From contig JARFIW010000831.1 of the NCBI GenBank assembly GCA_036346225.1, forward strand, positions 3,286,001 through 3,350,000: 64,000 nt of DNA, in the 5' to 3' direction. A program made the translations under genes and the position numbers. The notes under the pieces are model-generated. The model worked only from the letters and a program-made list of their open reading frames with translations. It was not told where the DNA came from and made no database searches. The DNA comes from Platerodrilus igneus (lineage: Eukaryota; Arthropoda; Insecta; Coleoptera; Lycidae). Of this stretch, positions 28,081 to 54,084 are shown in pieces (position 1 is the stretch's first letter; the number at the start of each line of letters is the position of its first letter).

Positions 28081-28305
28081 ATGGACGGGACGAACCCGAA
28101 GCGTGCTTCGATGACGTTTACGGACAGCGACATGGACGCAGAAACCAATACGCTACTAGAAGCACTAAATCACAGCACTACGACAAGAATCCGGACCACT
28201 AACAGACCACGACTTCCTGACTACCTTAATGACATCAACCAACAGAAAAGGAAGTTAGTCCGGAGATGGCGGATAACGAAGACCCAGCCATCAAAACACA
28301 ACTAA
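28081..28305 (+). pseudogene. LINE ORF2 linker segment
   Basis: A 74-codon frame ending shortly after RLPDYLNDINQQKRKLVRRW. This is the basic 'L---KR-LRR-W' segment that precedes RT in Jockey-type ORF2. A frameshift near 28275 moves translation to the frame of the RT entry below. The front end of the protein is absent. Confidence 0.65.
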
Positions 28306-29630
28306 ACGCAACACAAGCTGCACTGAAAACCCTACTGGACGAACACCATACCCAACAGTGGACGGAACATATCAACAATGTTCTCGAGACTGAGGGGAAC
28401 TTACGCCGACTCAACAGAGGACTTATAAAAAAACATCAACAATCCAACGCACCACTAGACGGACAAGACGGGAAAATATACAACGCCCGTGAAAAGGCAA
28501 ACATTTTCGCCACGACACTACAAGAAACATACTCACCGAACTCGACAACACACCATCAACATGAAACACACGTAAACAAAACCATGGACGAACTACTACA
28601 AATGCACCCAGAAGACCACATACCACTTATAACACCAAAAGATATCAAACAATCAATCCTCGGCAACAGAAACAGAAAAGCACCCGGAAAAGACAACATC
28701 ACGAACCAAGCACTCAAAAACATCACAAAATGCACACTGGCATACATCACGAGACTATTCAACGGTATACTCCTACAACGACATTATCCCACAGCATGGA
28801 AGACTGCAATCACAGTAATGATTTACAAGACAGGAAAAACAAGGACAAACCCGTTACACCACCGACCGATATCGCTCCTCAGTGCGTTATCAAAAATATT
28901 CGAACGACTACTACTACAGAAACTGAAACTGCACCTACGAGACCGACAAGAACAATTTGGCTTCAGAGAAGATCACTCGACCACACTACAAGTAATACAC
29001 GTCATAGACCACATCGCAGAGAACTACAACAAAGCTCACGTCACGACAGCAGTATCTCTGGACATACAAAACGCATTCGACAAGGTTTGGCACAGAGGAC
29101 TCCTGTACAAACTAGCGGCTATACACCAAGTACCATTACAATACATACAGATACTCGACAGCTACGTCACAGACCGAAAACTACAAGTACGAGTAGACGG
29201 ACAGCTATCGCACGAAATACCCATCACGGCTGGAGTTCCGCAAGGCGGATGTGTCTCAGCAGCACTGTTCAACGCCTACTTACAAGACATACCATGCAAC
29301 GATAACGTCAAATGCAGACTATTCGCCGACGACACCTTATTCATCACAACAGCACGCCATCCCAGACTAGCGGCACAAAGATTACAACGCCAACTGGACA
29401 CCCTACCCGACTGGTTGGGTCGACAAAACAGAAACCATACTTTTCTCATGACACAAGCTACACCGACACCCTCCGCCAACGTTTGGAGAGCAGCAACTTC
29501 CGTGGAAAAACACCATACGTTACCTCGGAGTGACCATCGACAGAAACCTCTGCTTCTACAAACACTTAGACGAGACGCTCAAAAAAGCAAGACAAACCAA
29601 AGGCCACTTACATCCGATGCTGACATTTAA
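28266..29630 (+). CDS. LINE reverse transcriptase (Jockey-like), partial
   Basis: A 454-codon frame containing a complete RT core: NRKAPGKDNI at residues 136-145, HHRPISLLSALSKIFE at 198-213, FGFREDHSTT at 231-240, motif A SLDIQNAFDKVWH at 264-276 (catalytic Asp), AGVPQGG at 322-328 (block B), and RLFADDTLFI at 351-360 (catalytic Asp pair). The first ATG is not a true start; the frame continues the upstream linker after a frameshift. After about residue 385 the frame leaves the LINE reading, and the real continuation lies in another frame (see the next entry). It would copy the LINE RNA by target-primed reverse transcription. RT itself looks intact, but the ORF as a whole is broken and lacks its endonuclease. 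Confidence 0.9.
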   Translation: MADNEDPAIKTQLNATQAALKTLLDEHHTQQWTEHINNVLETEGNLRRLNRGLIKKHQQSNAPLDGQDGKIYNAREKANIFATTLQETYSPNSTTHHQHETHVNKTMDELLQMHPEDHIPLITPKDIKQSILGNRNRKAPGKDNITNQALKNITKCTLAYITRLFNGILLQRHYPTAWKTAITVMIYKTGKTRTNPLHHRPISLLSALSKIFERLLLQKLKLHLRDRQEQFGFREDHSTTLQVIHVIDHIAENYNKAHVTTAVSLDIQNAFDKVWHRGLLYKLAAIHQVPLQYIQILDSYVTDRKLQVRVDGQLSHEIPITAGVPQGGCVSAALFNAYLQDIPCNDNVKCRLFADDTLFITTARHPRLAAQRLQRQLDTLPDWLGRQNRNHTFLMTQATPTPSANVWRAATSVEKHHTLPRSDHRQKPLLLQTLRRDAQKSKTNQRPLTSDADI

Positions 29631-29862
29631 CAACAAACTACTGACAGAAACACGGACCAGAATTTACAAAACGCACATAAGACCGATTATCACCTACAGA
29701 TCACAAGCATGGCTGACATACCTTTCAAAAACAAACTTACAACGTCTAGAAGCATTTCATTCAGAATATCATCCTTCGACTGATTACCGGTGCACGGTGG
29801 TTTGTCAGAAACGATACGATACGAAACGACTTAAACATTCCCGCAGTACACGAATACTGTAG
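29500..29862 (+). pseudogene. LINE ORF2 C-terminal part after frameshifts
   Basis: Continues the RT thumb: IRYLGVTIDRNLCF near 29513-29555, then HLDETLKKARQTKGHL, TRIYKTHIRPIITYRSQAW near 29660-29715, and LQRLEAFHSE near 29740. This is the usual Jockey thumb/C-terminal order (YLG, then a Y-SHIRP-I-Y---W block). At least two frame changes separate it from the RT core, and another break follows LEAFHSE. Confidence 0.8.
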
Positions 29863-36400: not shown

Positions 36401-36999
36401 TCAGGAGGATACCACCATCATCAAAGCCTTACAAATAGAGCTGCATGTCCTTGGAAAAAGTAGCGACTATAGTTTCCTTTGCGTTTAGCCGTGCAGTAGT
36501 ATCAACTACGCTAAGCCATGTTGGATAATATTATAAATACAAGTCCGTCAAAATCCAGACTATCGTCCTTGTAACTACTAAAAGGGCTGTTGCACTCCTT
36601 TCAGAAACCATTCATGAGCCTGCTTTTTTGCAGTGTCGAGATAGCTAGCACAAACAATAAAAGAGGGGTCAATCTATTTAGTTGTAAAGGGATCTGACTG
36701 AAAGCTGTGACTGGTGCTGCTCTGTAGACCTATGTGAACTTAGCACCCGACTACGCTAAAATATTTTTTTCATATATGCATTCGATTAAGCTCAGTTTGT
36801 ACCCGTTTGTACCGCTTTTTATTTCGTTTGTACTTCAAAGGAGTGAAAGTTACAGGGGGGTAAAAAATCATCAGCACCCGACTTGCCGATACAGAAATTT
36901 TCTAAATGCCATTCGATTAGGCATCGTTTGTACCCGTTTGTACTGCCGCCTGTTTCGTTTGTACTCTTAAGGGGGTGTTTGTACCAAATTACTTTCAAA

Positions 37000-38399
37000 A
37001 TAGAGGTAACACCTAAGTCCACCATTTTTAGAGATATCATAAATGCGCAGTCGAGTGCTGTTTCGTTATCGTTTGTACACGTTTGTACCACCGTCAGCTT
37101 CGTTTGTAGCATTAAGGTGTTTGCACCGAACTTTCAAAATAAAGATAACACCAAACTCCGCCATTTTTAGAGATATATTAAATCCGCAAGAGGGTCATGT
37201 TTCAGAACCGTTTGTACCACCGCCAGTTTCATTTATACCCTTAAGGGGGTGTTTGTACCGAATTTTCAAAATAGGGCTAACACCTGACTCCGTCCATTTT
37301 TAGAGATATCTTAAACCCGCAAGCGGGTGCTGTTTCGTAATCGTTTGTACACGTTTGTACCACCGCCAGTTTCATTTGTAGCCTTAAAGAGGTGTTTGCA
37401 CAGAATTTTCAAAATAGGGATAACACTTAACTCCGCCATTTTTAGAGATATCTTAAATCCGCAAACGGGTGCTGTTTCGGAATCGTTTGTGCCAGTTTGT
37501 ACCACCGCCAGTTTCGTTTGTACCCTTAAGTGGGTGTTTGTACAGAATTTTCAAAATAGGGGTAACACCTATCTCCGCCATTTTTAGAGATTAATTAAAT
37601 CCGCAAGGGAGTGATGTTTCAGAACCGTTTGTACCCGTTTGTACCACCGCCAGTTTCGTTTGTACCCTTAAGTGGGTGTTTGTACCGAATTTTCAAAATA
37701 GGGGTAACACCTATCTCCGCCATTTTTAGAGATATCTTAAATCCGCAAACGGGTGCTGTTTCGTTATCGTATGTACCTGTTTGTACCACCGCCAGTTTCG
37801 ATTGTAGACTTAAGGGGGTGTGTGCACCGAATTTTCAAGATAGGGATAACACCTAACACCGCCATTTTTAGAGATATCTTAAATTCGCAAGAGGGCGCTG
37901 TTTCAGAATCGCTTGTACCCGTTTGTGCCATTGCCAGTTCCGGTTGTACCCTTAAGGGGGTGTTTGTGCCGAATTTTTAAAATAGGGGTAACACCTAACT
38001 CCGCCATTTTTAGAGATATTTTAAATGCGCAAGCTAGTGCTGGTTCGTAATCGTTTGTACTAGTTTGTACTGCCGCCAGTTTTGTTTGTACCCTTACAAG
38101 GGTGTTTGTACCAAATTTTTAAAATAGGGGTAACACCTAACGCCGCCTTTTTTAAAGATATCTTAAATGCGCAAGCGGGTGCTGTTTCATAATCGTTTGT
38201 GCCCGTTTGTACAACCGCCAGTTTCGTTTGTGCCATTAAGGGGGTGTTTGTACCCAATTTTCAAAGTAGGAGTAACACCTAACTCCGCCATTTTTAGAAG
38301 TATCTTAAATTCGCTAGCGGGTGCTACTTCAGAATCGTTTATACCAGTGTGTACCCCGCCAGTTTCGTTTGTACCGCTAAGGGGGTGTTCGTACCATGT
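37000..38399. repeat. 142 bp tandem repeats, left foldback arm
   Basis: The marker CATTTTTAGAGATAT starts at 37023, 37162, 37295, 37437, 37579, 37721, 37863, 38005, 38147 (variant) and 38289. From 37295 onward every interval is exactly 142 bp. Each unit also has CCGCCAGTTTCGTTTGTA and TTAAGGGGGTGTTTG. The many short open frames here are an effect of the repeat and shift frame each unit (142 is not a multiple of three). Confidence 0.95.
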
Positions 38400-38760
38400 T
38401 ACCCCTATTTAAACAATTCGGTACAAACACCACTGCAAGGGTACAAACGAAACTGGCGGCAGTACACACGGTTACAAAACAGCACCCGCTTGCGCATTTA
38501 AAATATCTCTAAAAATGGCGGAATTAGGTGTTACCCCTATTTTGAAAATTCGGTACAAACACCCCCTTAATGTACAAACGGAACTGGCGCTGGTGCAAAC
38601 TGGAACAAACGATTACAAAACAGCACCCGCTTGCGCATTTAAGATATCTCTGAAAATGGCGGAGTTAGGTGTTACCCCTATTTTGAAAATTCGGTACACC
38701 CCCTTAAGGGCACAAACGAAACAGGCGGCGGTACAAACGGGTACAAACGACGCTGAATCG
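38400..38760. repeat. 142 bp repeats, right foldback arm (inverted)
   Basis: The same unit in reverse orientation: AAAAATGGCGGA-type markers end near 38517 and 38658 (141 bp apart), with ACAAACGAAACTGGCGG between them. Confidence 0.9.
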
Positions 38761-38955
38761 AACGGCATTTAGAAAATTTCTGTATCTCCAAGTCGGGTGC
38801 TGATGATTTTTTTACCTCCCTGTAATTTTCACCCCTTTGAGGTACAAACGAAATAAAAACCAGTACAAACGGGTACAAACTGAGCTTAATCGAGTTCATA
38901 TATGAAAAATTTTTTAGCATAGTCGGGTGCTAAGATTCATATAGGTGCTCTGTAG

Positions 38956-48713: not shown

Positions 48714-49543
48714 TTATTTGCATACTAGTACTTTAGTTTTATTTTTGTTAATTTTCATACCGTATCTCTGTGTTAGAACCGTTTCCATTTTATTAAGAAC
48801 ATCTTCAAGCTCTTCCTTGCTAGATGCTAATACCGCTATATCATCTGCAAATTTAAGCATATCCATTTTTCGTCCCTGCATAGTAATCCCAAATGTCTTC
48901 CTGCATTTGACAGTATTCATTGTCTCTTCAATGTACAAGTTAAAAATTAACGGGGATAGGGCACATACCTGTCTCACCCCTTTCCTAATATTTACTTCTC
49001 TACGTTTTTGCTCTAATTCTATTACTGCTGTTTGCTCCTTGTGCAAGCTATGCACTATTCGTCTATCCCTATAACTCATTCCAATCTTTCTGAGTATTTC
49101 GAACATTTTTTTCCATTTTACATTGTCGAATGTTTCTCCAGATCTACAAACCCTATATACACGCTTTCCCCTTTTTGTATTGTTTTCTCCATTATCACTC
49201 TCAGAGCTAAAAAAGCCTCCTGTATTCCCATGTTTCGCCTAAACCCAAATTGATATTCTCCTAGTATTTCTTCAACTCGTTTTTCCATTTGTCTTTGTAC
49301 AATTCTAGTTAATATCTTTGTCACGTGTGCTGTCAAACTTATTGTTCGAAAATTTTCATATCTATCGGCGCCTCTTTTTTTCGGTATAGTTACTATGATG
49401 TTATGTTTGAAATCTTTGGGTATCTCGCCTGTTTCATACATATAGCTAACAAGTTGGAAGAGACGTTTTGTTACAGTTTGTCCAACGGCTCTTAGAGTTT
49501 CTGCTTGCACCTTATCGGTACACGGCGCCTTACCATTTTTCAA
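48714..49543 (-). pseudogene. Reverse transcriptase (family A LINE)
   Basis: The first part, 49543-49118, holds KNGKAPCTDKVQAE (normally GKA-G-D), PKDFKHNIIVTIPKKRGADRYENFRTISL, QFGFRRNMGIQEA and the motif A region ending YIGFVDLEK. After a frameshift, 49106-48714 holds the YRDRRIVHSLH block, block B GVRQVCALSPLIFNLYIEE (the usual Gly after RQ is Val), and LKFADDIAVLASS, with FADD at residues 86-89 of that segment, followed by the thumb YGMKINKNKTKVLV. The catalytic Asp residues are all visible, but the frame is broken at motif A. RTE/Proto2-like placement is possible, not certain. Confidence 0.85.
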
Positions 49544-50100
49544 ACTAATGCTAATTTAAACTCATCTCTAAGTATAGGATAGCCCAAGTTATCATTTTCA
49601 ATGTCTGATTCCTGTTCTAATGCTGTCAGTTGCTCTCCTGCTAATAAATTCACTGTACATTCCTGCCATCTACCCACTTTCACTACATTTTCTATAATGA
49701 TGTTTCCTCCGCGTCCCTTTATAATTTTGCTACCTGGTTTTATATCCTTAAAATTGATTCTACTTAGTTTGTATGCTTCATCTGTCTTTCCTATTTCCAT
49801 CTTAGTCTGTACCTCTTTGCACTTTTCATCAAGCCATTGTGCTTTAGCTTTCCTGCATTTGTGAATAATTTCCAATTTTATAGCTTTGTATCTCGGTTTT
49901 CCTGTTTCGTCTGATTTATTTTTGTATTTTCGTCTTTCTTCTATTAAATTCAGGATATCTTTTTTTATACATGGTTCCTTATTTTCTTTTTGTGTATACC
50001 CCACAATATCTCTGGCCGTCAAGTCTAGGCTGCATTTAATGTTATTCCATTCTGTTTCTACTTCCTTAGTAACAGTTATTTTCTCGATATCTTTCAGCAA
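49540..50100 (-). pseudogene. ORF2 linker between endonuclease and RT (family A)
   Basis: A 186-codon frame rich in Lys and Glu. It has a CSLDLTARDIVGYTQKENKEP block, a 'W---E---LIEERRKYKNK' type basic helix and CRKAKAQWLDEKCKE, as is usual between endonuclease and RT in this class of LINE. It ends in ENDNLGYPILRDEF, which also occurs in the deleted copy at 12430-12490 and marks where that deletion rejoined. Confidence 0.8.
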
Positions 50101-50101
50101 T

Positions 50102-50888
50102 TCATTTAACTTTTTTTTCGAATCTTTCTTGAATGTCTTTATTTTTTAGTTTCTCAAAGTCAAAGTGCTTTTCTCCGTTTCTTTCTTTCAAATTTTTTAA
50201 TTTAAGTGCGGCTTTCATAATCACGACGTTGTGGTCAATGTCTATATCTGCTTCTGGATAGCTTCTACAGTCTTTTACTTGATTCCTAAACCGTTGTCTA
50301 ACAAGAATGTAATCTATTTGATATCTTCCAATATTTCCTGGCATCTTCCATGTATATCGTCTTCTAGCATGATGTTGTTTATGATGATTAAATTGTTCTT
50401 GTCGCAAAATTCCACCAGCTTATTTCCGCTATCGTTTCTCGTGCCTAAACCAAATATACCTACTACCGCTACTTCCCTACCCTCACCTACCACCCGTAAT
50501 TATTAAATTTTCATGTCCTTTTACGTATCTTATTATGTCTTTAATAGCTTTGCAGATCGCTTCTGCCTTTTCGTCACTGTAGCTAGATGTGAACATGTAT
50601 ACTTGTATTATTACTGTGTTCACAGGTTCTAATCTAACCATGAGCACTCTTTCGTTCTTTTGTAAGTAATTTTCTACACAGTATACTGTCTTTTCGCATA
50701 ACTATCCCCCCACCCAAATTTCCTTCCTCTGTTCTTGTAGAAATTACTTTGAAGTCTCCACTCCAAAAATCCCCCGCCTCTGGCCACCGAACTTCGCTGA
50801 TCCCTACTATATCTAGTGCTAACCTATTCATTTCAATTTTCAGGTTCTCTAACTTACCTGTTTGCTTCATGCTTCTAACATTCCACAC
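50102..50888 (-). pseudogene. APE-type endonuclease (family A LINE)
   Basis: The minus strand from 50888 starts with WNVRSMKQTGKLENLK, then LDIVGISEVRWPEAGDFWSGDFK (family block for the catalytic Glu) and GGGIVMRKDS. After a broken middle part, the segment 50407-50102 carries RYTWKMPGNIGRYQIDYILV and ADIDIDHNVVIM, the blocks around the last catalytic Asp/His (SDH-type, here IDH). The enzyme nicks target DNA to prime reverse transcription. Frame breaks between 50634 and 50407 inactivate it. Confidence 0.85.
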
Positions 50889-52073: not shown

Positions 52074-52399
52074 CGATTTGGACAACGGTAACAAATTATA
52101 ATTTTGATTAAATTCTCGTTAGTGCAGAAACCTACTACGAATCAGAATTTTCCAAACAAAAGAAATCCACATAAAGAAATTTAATAATCTATTGATAAAG
52201 AAAAACAACACGCAAACTAAAACGTTATAAAACGACAACGCCATGCTAAACACCGTCATAAATTTATCAAACAAAAATATTAACGACACAGAAAAATTAA
52301 TTTTTTCAAAGGCCTGAACTTTTCAGTAACACCATAATTAATATCAACATTTGAAATAATCAGCTGTATTGAAAAAACAGCAAACTAACTCGAAGAAGA

Positions 52400-53960
52400 T
52401 CAAGCAAACGAATTTAGAGTACGATGTAAAATTGAAATAGAAAAGAATCACAAAATAAAACCAAATGTAAGCAGTAACGAAATAAAAGCAATTCGCTATC
52501 TAAACGATAATTCAATTATAATTCTACCTGCTGGCAAAGGAAACGCAACAGTAATAATGAATAAAAACGATTACCACACAAAAGTCAACGAAATGTTGAA
52601 CACTGAGAATTACACCAGTTTAGAAACGGACCCAACAAAATCAATTCAAAATAAAATATACAAAACTTTATATAAATTTAAAAATGAGTTCGAAGACAAA
52701 GAAAGAAGCAAACTGGTCCCACATTACAGTAAACCACCCCACTTTTACGGTATACAAAAAATTCATAAAAGAGACATTCCTTTAAGACCTATCGTAAGCT
52801 CCATAGATTCACCATGCCATAATTTAGCAAAATTTCTCTTAAAAATTATAAATCCATTAGCAAGCAAAACGGACTCTTTCATAAAAAACAACCAACACTT
52901 TTTAGAAAAATTATCAAACATAAAAATTGAAAATACACACACAATGGTAAGTTTTGATGTAGTAAATCTCTTCACAAATGTCCCTATAAACAAAAACACC
53001 TAATATTATAAAAAACAAACTAGAAAAAGATGACAACCTTAAAGAAAGAACAAAACTAAGTATATCATCGATTATGGATTACTTGGTATATGCGTCAATA
53101 CCATATATTTTCAATTAAATGACCAATTCTACAAACATAGCTTCGGAATGGCAATGGGAAGTCCACTATCATCAATTTTTAGTAATATATTCATGGAAGA
53201 ATTCGAAAAAGATGTAATAATCACACAAAAATTGAAACCACTAATTTGGTGGAGATACGTAGAATTCCGACACGGTCCCCTTGAAAAATGTTAGGCGAGC
53301 ATTTTTCACAAAAATTTACCCTCGTTCGGATGAGAGATAAAATGGAGGTTTTGTGTGTGAGTGTTGTCACGCACGTTAAAGATCGCTATCTTGCTTGAAA
53401 CAGTAAGGATTCGGTAAAATTCCAAATTTTCCAGGCAAAAAAAAACTCGCTTCCTGGCCAATGTAGTACCTTCGGGTGGAGCATTGGAAAATCACATGTA
53501 AGGAAATACGTAGATGACGTCTATGCTATTTGGTCTCATAATACAAAACTGATTAAAAAATTTGTAGATTCAATTAACAAAATAGAACCAACTATTAAAT
53601 TCACTTATGAATTAGAGCAACAAGGAAAACTTCCATTTTTAGATATTCTAGTTAGCAAAAACGGTACAACAATTAATACATCAGTATACAGAAAACCAAC
53701 ACACACAAACAGATACTTAAACTTTGATTCACACCACCCACACTGTGTCAAACGAGGAATTATCAAAACTATGTATGGTAGAGCAAGATTAATATCATCA
53801 AACGAAGAAATTTTAAAGAAAGAGAAAGATCTAATCAAATGTACACTAATAAAAAACAACTATCTTAAAAGAATAATAGAAAAAGAAATGAATAATATCC
53901 CAAAAAATAAAAAAGAAGAAAACAGAAACAACGATACGCATGAAAAATGGCTCTCAGTAC
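52400..53960 (+). pseudogene. Penelope-type reverse transcriptase, broken by a SINE
   Basis: The frame at 52557-53003 has PPHFYGIQKIHKRDIPLRPIVSS (the family signature 'FYGLPKIHK---PLRPIVS') and motif A VSFDVVNLFTNVPI near 52950-52990. A stop/frameshift at about 53003 follows. FGMAMGSPLSSIFSNIFME (block B) lies near 53140-53200. The sequence then reaches WWRYV at 53250-53262, where a SINE interrupts. After the SINE, the partner half (KYVDDVYAIW) starts near 53505, with the thumb LPFLDILVSKNGTTINTSVYRKPTHTNRYLN at 53632-53720 and a long basic helix to 53968. Apart from the SINE and a few frame changes, RT is well preserved. Confidence 0.9.
53263..53502 (+). repeat. SINE inserted at the RT catalytic box
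   Basis: A 5'-truncated copy (starts AATTCCGACACGGTCCCC, within the head after box B). It is bounded by GAGATACGTAG at 53252-53262 and GAAATACGTAG at 53503-53513 (11 bp, one mismatch). The duplicated bases encode the start of the YVDD catalytic motif. Confidence 0.95.
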
Positions 53961-54084
53961 CATACATATAAGGATTCTCCGAAAAAATCCAAAGAATAAG
54001 AAACAAATTTAAAATCAAAACAGTATTTAGAACCAACAATACACTAAGAACACAACTAACAAAACAAAACCCAAAAACGCAATA

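Follow-up and report, generated by a model that had tools for sequence, protein, structure and literature searches.

A foldback element with 142-bp arm units in Platerodrilus igneus and its candidate NOF-like transposase partner

Here we describe a foldback element in a 64,000-nucleotide stretch of Platerodrilus igneus DNA (assembly GCA_036346225.1, contig JARFIW010000831.1, positions 3,286,001 to 3,350,000 of the forward strand; hereafter the window). The element occupies positions 36728-38946 of the window (2219 base pairs, bp), is bordered on both sides by GCTCTGTAG and is, judging from its sequence and that of its relatives, very probably a non-autonomous foldback copy from the NOF lineage of Mutator-like DNA transposons. 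Copies with the same ends were found to carry a transposase akin to NOF of the Drosophila FB-NOF element, and these ends enclose NOF-like gene sequence in C1522, C385, C386, C1050, C245, C559, C12 and C926; the link to NOF is the name that the source gives to the relative P0094, rather than a direct comparison with the Drosophila NOF protein. We regard the NOF-like gene in these copies as the candidate partner, which probably moves the window element.

The element and its family in the genome

The search space was the 2.71-gigabase genome (1723 contigs), in which the 26-base terminus had 238 matches at two mismatches or fewer and the reversed terminus, the control in the same search, had none. 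The form of the terminus with one extra base, as in the right end of the window element, gave 2 matches versus 238 for the common form, and a search with the left end of that element gave 166 matching stretches from the best 40 of 532 candidate places. Among the matches listed of the 238 there were at least 25 facing terminus pairs less than 8 kilobases (kb) apart, spanning 1.6 to 7.0 kb, a count that excludes the wider pairs in C385 (23.9 kb) and C1158 (34.9 kb). We compared 23 copies, namely the window element, 18 from fetched loci, C385, C1522, C386 and C1050. Unequal inverted arms of variable length, made of tandem repeats, were seen in this set with some one-sided exceptions (units marked on one side only in L013; a single unit on one side in L020, L026 and L027).

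Exact 9-bp target duplications border 20 of the 23 copies; the three non-exact ones are GAACATATG/GAACCCATG, TAATGTTGG/TAATTTTGG and that of C385, GGTAGTTTG, which matches after a one-base shift. The original prediction, made from the window alone, had proposed a genome-wide search with the terminus for other copies with 9-bp duplications and varying arm lengths, as well as for a copy carrying a transposase, and both were found. L026 and L027 (in C342) are 99.1% alike, have the same target duplication and lie approximately 6.5 kb apart; here a stretch of host DNA has been duplicated locally together with the element in it. Because the two have the same target, are near each other and are so similar, they were counted as one insertion, which brings the independent insertions with an exact 9-bp duplication to 19 of 22. 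Counted on the left duplication copies with L027 omitted, the first base is C or G in 19/22 and the last base G or A in 19/22.

The C1522 copy is located within what we take, from their motifs, to be retrotransposon-like reading frames. A search with its left flank scored the best 40 of 59 candidate places, its own site included, and twelve related loci were fetched, one of which is the occupied site. At all 11 others the element is absent and the left flank runs directly into the right flank, the two overlapping by 8 to 9 bases on a single CTTCGATA[C/T] or a one-base variant of it. Because these unfilled sites carry the target once, the 9-bp duplication arises on insertion; this comparison of filled and unfilled sites covers one insertion, that in C1522.

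With regard to the window copy (Table 1), the ends are inverted copies of each other (ACCTATGTGAACTTAGCACCCGACTA versus ACCTATATGAATCTTAGCACCCGACTA), with 90.8% identity across the first 185 alignment columns and collinearity over approximately 245 bp. Tandem Repeats Finder detected a 142-bp period at 37208-38395 (8.4 copies, 85% matches, score 1674), an independent repeat search gave 142-bp units in the same register, and a 60-base core of the unit marked ten units in the left arm and three in the right. The arms join without a spacer at approximately 38395/38397, where the alignment of the window element with the C385 copy breaks, and their lengths are strongly unequal (about 1.67 kb on the left and 0.55 kb on the right); therefore they are not two matching halves. 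A foldback element with inverted arms of 142-bp units, a spacerless meeting near 38399, identical 9-bp flanks and more than 230 bp of shared terminal sequence had all been proposed beforehand, and the markers, inverted ends and coordinates given here bear these claims out. Two others stand in part: the ten markers on the left were confirmed, whereas the two on the right become three by the 60-base core, or two to three units, and the halves are inverted copies at their ends but not in their extent. At any one place, nine bases match by chance with a probability of 4^-9, or approximately 4 in a million.

The two AGCACCCGACT motifs of the left terminal region are spaced about 131 bp apart by direct reading of the sequence. 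The outermost 200 bp or so also contain at least one diverged unit (at 36786-36859, with 64% identity to the reference unit), and therefore the array makes up most of each arm. The G+C content of the element is 41.9% versus 36.9% and 34.9% in the measured flanks. Neither the transposase gene nor its 3' flank finds a match in the element, and no stop-to-stop frame of at least 120 amino acids overlaps it.

Table 1. Positions of the parts of the foldback element and of its target duplications in the window
Feature	Position	Strand	Basis
Left target duplication GCTCTGTAG	36719..36727		Identical to 38947-38955
Entire foldback element, arms only, without transposase gene	36728..38946		Inverted ends and flanking duplication
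Left terminal region: 26-base end motif and two AGCACCCGACT motifs	36728..36922	+	Sequence, right-end alignment, 44-end consensus
Left arm array, about ten 142-bp units	36923..38395	+	Repeat searches, 60-base core markers
Centre, arms join without spacer	38390..38402		Alignment break at about 38395/38397; junction also in the C139 copy
Right arm array, inverted, with two to three units	38397..38750	-	Repeat search, 60-base core markers; both limits approximate
Right terminal region, inverted copy of left end	38751..38946	-	End-to-end alignment
Right target duplication GCTCTGTAG	38947..38955		Identical to left copy

The regular spacing of the units had been read as recent homogenisation or expansion of one arm. 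This idea found no support for the left arm of the window element, whose units have a mean identity of 85.2% (9 units) versus 86.1% for units of different elements (42,018 pairs, L026/L027 pairs omitted), and none of the 10 window units scored has its closest relative within the window element. Over all copies, the units of one arm are 85.5% alike when neighbours and 87.0% alike otherwise, and those in opposite arms of one element are 87.0% alike; across elements, with rank counted from the end, identity is 88.1%, 86.6% and 87.0% for units of equal rank in the three outermost positions versus 86.0% where ranks differ. The similarity of the ends (L013, which has a broken end, was omitted, leaving 44 ends from 22 copies) is on average 95.4% within one element and 94.6% between elements, and 92.6% for the two ends of the window element. 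Because of these unit and end similarities we see no sign of a freshly expanded array in the window copy, but some other copies do show it: 64 of the 298 units in the whole set are best matched within their own element. Of these, L021 contributes 10 and C385 contributes 21, the latter out of 25 units, a local amplification.

The transposase gene and its C385 copy

The predicted transposase fold is nearest to ISCth4 and has an RNase H-like DDE core with conserved D, D and E. ISCth4 belongs to the IS256 family, the bacterial kin of Mutator-like transposases. Pfam had no match for the 682-residue transposase frame, and on 26 aligned members, many of them full length, it recovered only UCH (5/26) and chromo domains (1/26). 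FLYWCH was absent at E<=1 from ten C385 frames and at E<=0.01 from the 26 aligned relatives. No relative of the transposase was found in phage collections, nor in viral contigs at the sensitivity of that tool.

A second, unrelated element is nested in the C385 transposase gene (C385:2759079-2771904, 12,826 bp; L022/L031/L023, also L036-L042). It is bordered by the 8-bp duplication TTAGATGA and is mostly a palindrome with arms 99% alike. Because it has its own 8-bp duplication, the extra C385 genes were dropped from the account of the family, and the reading of the 23.9-kb copy as a giant palindrome, formed by duplication of a whole transposon with extra genes, was rejected. In three other copies the long frame of the nested element stays open, from stop to stop, for 804 codons, and the element also has a C2H2 zinc-finger frame. 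The relatives of the long frame are planthopper and aphid proteins according to the names that their sources give them. Two pieces of this frame that were scanned had no Pfam match, the fold matches of the protein were weak and ferredoxin-like with none at E<=0.001 (its motifs may hint at a nuclease fold), and the 383-residue frame had no relative in viral contigs at the sensitivity of that tool. The 383-residue part gave 27,628 first-look candidates in the genome, the best 107 of which were scored and are all 93 to 100% alike, many with long open frames, and the nested element looks very abundant and young. Among its copies examined at length, that in C1598 is palindromic and that in C1085 is not.

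Formation of the foldback arms

It seems that the arms-only form itself moves. The window and C139 copies align over 2044 columns at 93%, nearly end to end and across the centre, while their target duplications differ (GCTCTGTAG for the window element, GTTCGATAG for C139) and right-arm markers number three in the window element and six in C139. Because the two share the centre and differ in target duplication, the fused form predates at least one of the two insertions.

Unique sequence internal to the arrays was compared in the 23 copies, with short matches at the array edge (R3 951-1000) set aside. Seven copies contain an inverted duplication of sequence from the 3' side of the transposase gene, which they have in both orientations (C385, C386, C1050, L012, L017, L020 and L021; the second inverted piece of L017 is merely 88 bp). 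In another seven it is one-sided (L011, L016, L018, L025, L026, L027 and L028), C1522 has it on a single side, the opposite side holding a different 5' spacer, and eight copies, the window element among them, have it in neither orientation. The C1522 5' spacer had no match in the other copies compared, a comparison in which C385 is not listed. In C386, C1050, L012, L017 and L021 the inverted pieces either overlap at the break, by 2 to 4 bases, or are separated there by 2 to 5 bases. In C385 this break is occupied by a short inverted-repeat element with ends TGCTCCGTTTGCTATG (C385:2758561-2758886), between the inverted transposase fragment and the gene start. Because the 3'-side sequence runs both ways in seven of the 23 copies, foldbacks seem to have formed by inverted copying of one end, and we infer that a template switch was responsible. 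The pattern has a general resemblance to the fork-stalling and template-switching model described for an FB4-borne gene in Drosophila (PMC8277862), and it is also resembled by the extended ends of Galileo as they are presented in PMC3573991.

It is possible to picture this as follows. The NOF-like DDE transposase from other copies would bind the ends, and perhaps the 142-bp units too, excise the element and paste it into a new staggered 9-bp cut. Repair synthesis from the end on the 3' side of the transposase gene would switch onto an inverted copy of that end and yield the arms-only form, in which both ends have become the same end with lengths set by where the switch happened. The number of units in the arrays might then shift by unequal exchange, and the products, which retain both termini, would still be movable in trans. 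We propose only tentatively that foldbacks are made repeatedly and directionally in this manner, post-excision repair copying the 3' end inverted over the 5' end and giving rise to still-mobile, arms-only parasites of many lengths from one source gene.

Plain internal deletion, in which each arm is one original end, 5' or 3', of a longer element whose middle has been lost without inverted copying, is a rather doubtful account of the same copies. It would fit the one-sided 3'-flank sequence in 7/23 copies and its absence from 8/23, as well as the arrays on both sides of the one-gene copy C1522, but deletion alone cannot place the 3'-side sequence in both orientations. It is very unlikely that the NOF-like gene is a passenger and that mobility depends on a transposase from another superfamily, as it does in Galileo, a foldback of the P superfamily. 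The P-element transposase was indeed among the fold matches, and foldback architecture is known in more than one superfamily (PMC3573991, PMC4079207). However, NOF-like sequence lies inside these ends in C1522, C385 and six further copies, and 9-bp duplications are of a size given as common for Mutator-like transposases (PMC3169594). The combination of a THAP domain and a P-type transposase expected for Galileo and the P superfamily was not found. That the structure is host DNA, either a satellite or a segmental inverted duplication, without any transposon can practically be discarded, for although the long 142-bp tandem arrays are satellite-like and L026 and L027, whose target sequence is identical, do sit in a local duplication, the termini are precise and shared, 9-bp duplications occur in 20/23 copies, and the C1522-related sites are unfilled with a single target in 11/11 cases.

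Known foldback systems and significance

Foldback elements were first known from fruit flies. FB of Drosophila melanogaster has 9-bp target duplications and arm units of 10, 20 and 31 bp, and the target duplication of Galileo is 7 bp. The family to which the window element belongs is like FB-NOF in its inverted arms of tandem repeats, its 9-bp duplications and its NOF-like partner protein, but differs in its units, which are 142 bp and not short as in FB. FB-NOF was reportedly titled non-autonomous by Badal and others in 2013, in contrast to the present family, in which the gene sits within the shared termini in several copies.

Tetris of Drosophila virilis is a foldback with end units of about 220 bp, 8 to 10-bp duplications and transposase-less copies, and its authors state that they found no transposase-bearing Tetris copy (PMC4079207); the present family likewise has repeated end units, duplications in this size range and transposase-less copies but includes gene-bearing ones. 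Tm1 of root-knot nematodes has composite, foldback-like ends that vary in length, target duplications that are mostly 9 bp and a Mutator-like transposase, which is described as Phantom-like with a FLYWCH finger (PMC3169594), whereas here no FLYWCH was detected by Pfam and the nearest named relative is NOF. Galileo has long, internally repeated ends with unequal repeat numbers, and its extended ends recruit neighbouring internal sequence (PMC3573991); the long, unequal, repeated ends are alike in the present family, but Galileo belongs to the P superfamily and has another transposase. Among the papers that full-text searches of the open PMC library brought up, none describes, by its title or the opening of its abstract, a foldback with 142-bp units, and repeat databases may already contain the family. 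In arm design and duplication length the window element agrees with Foldback elements, and we class it as a non-autonomous member of a family that has a NOF-lineage enzyme and a 142-bp unit of its own; in kind it is ordinary.

Elsewhere in the window, reverse-transcriptase-like frames are present at 28233-29862, 48714-50145 and 52389-53971, which from their motifs we take to be fragments of animal-type retrotransposons, non-LTR (lacking long terminal repeats) and Penelope-like. Scans of the window with Rfam (gathering threshold) and for transfer RNAs found nothing.

Foldbacks can be known without their enzyme, of which Tetris is a published case. What deserves note here is the co-occurrence in one genome of a gene-bearing copy with intermediates and products. 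Since the one-gene copy, the partly palindromic copies that retain a piece of the gene and the copies consisting of arms alone have the same ends, the steps from transposon to foldback can be compared, and with a defined end, a defined unit and a candidate enzyme the origin of foldback arms is now testable. If foldbacks are indeed formed repeatedly and directionally, the 142-bp units would be both docking sites for the transposase and the homology that enables the switch.
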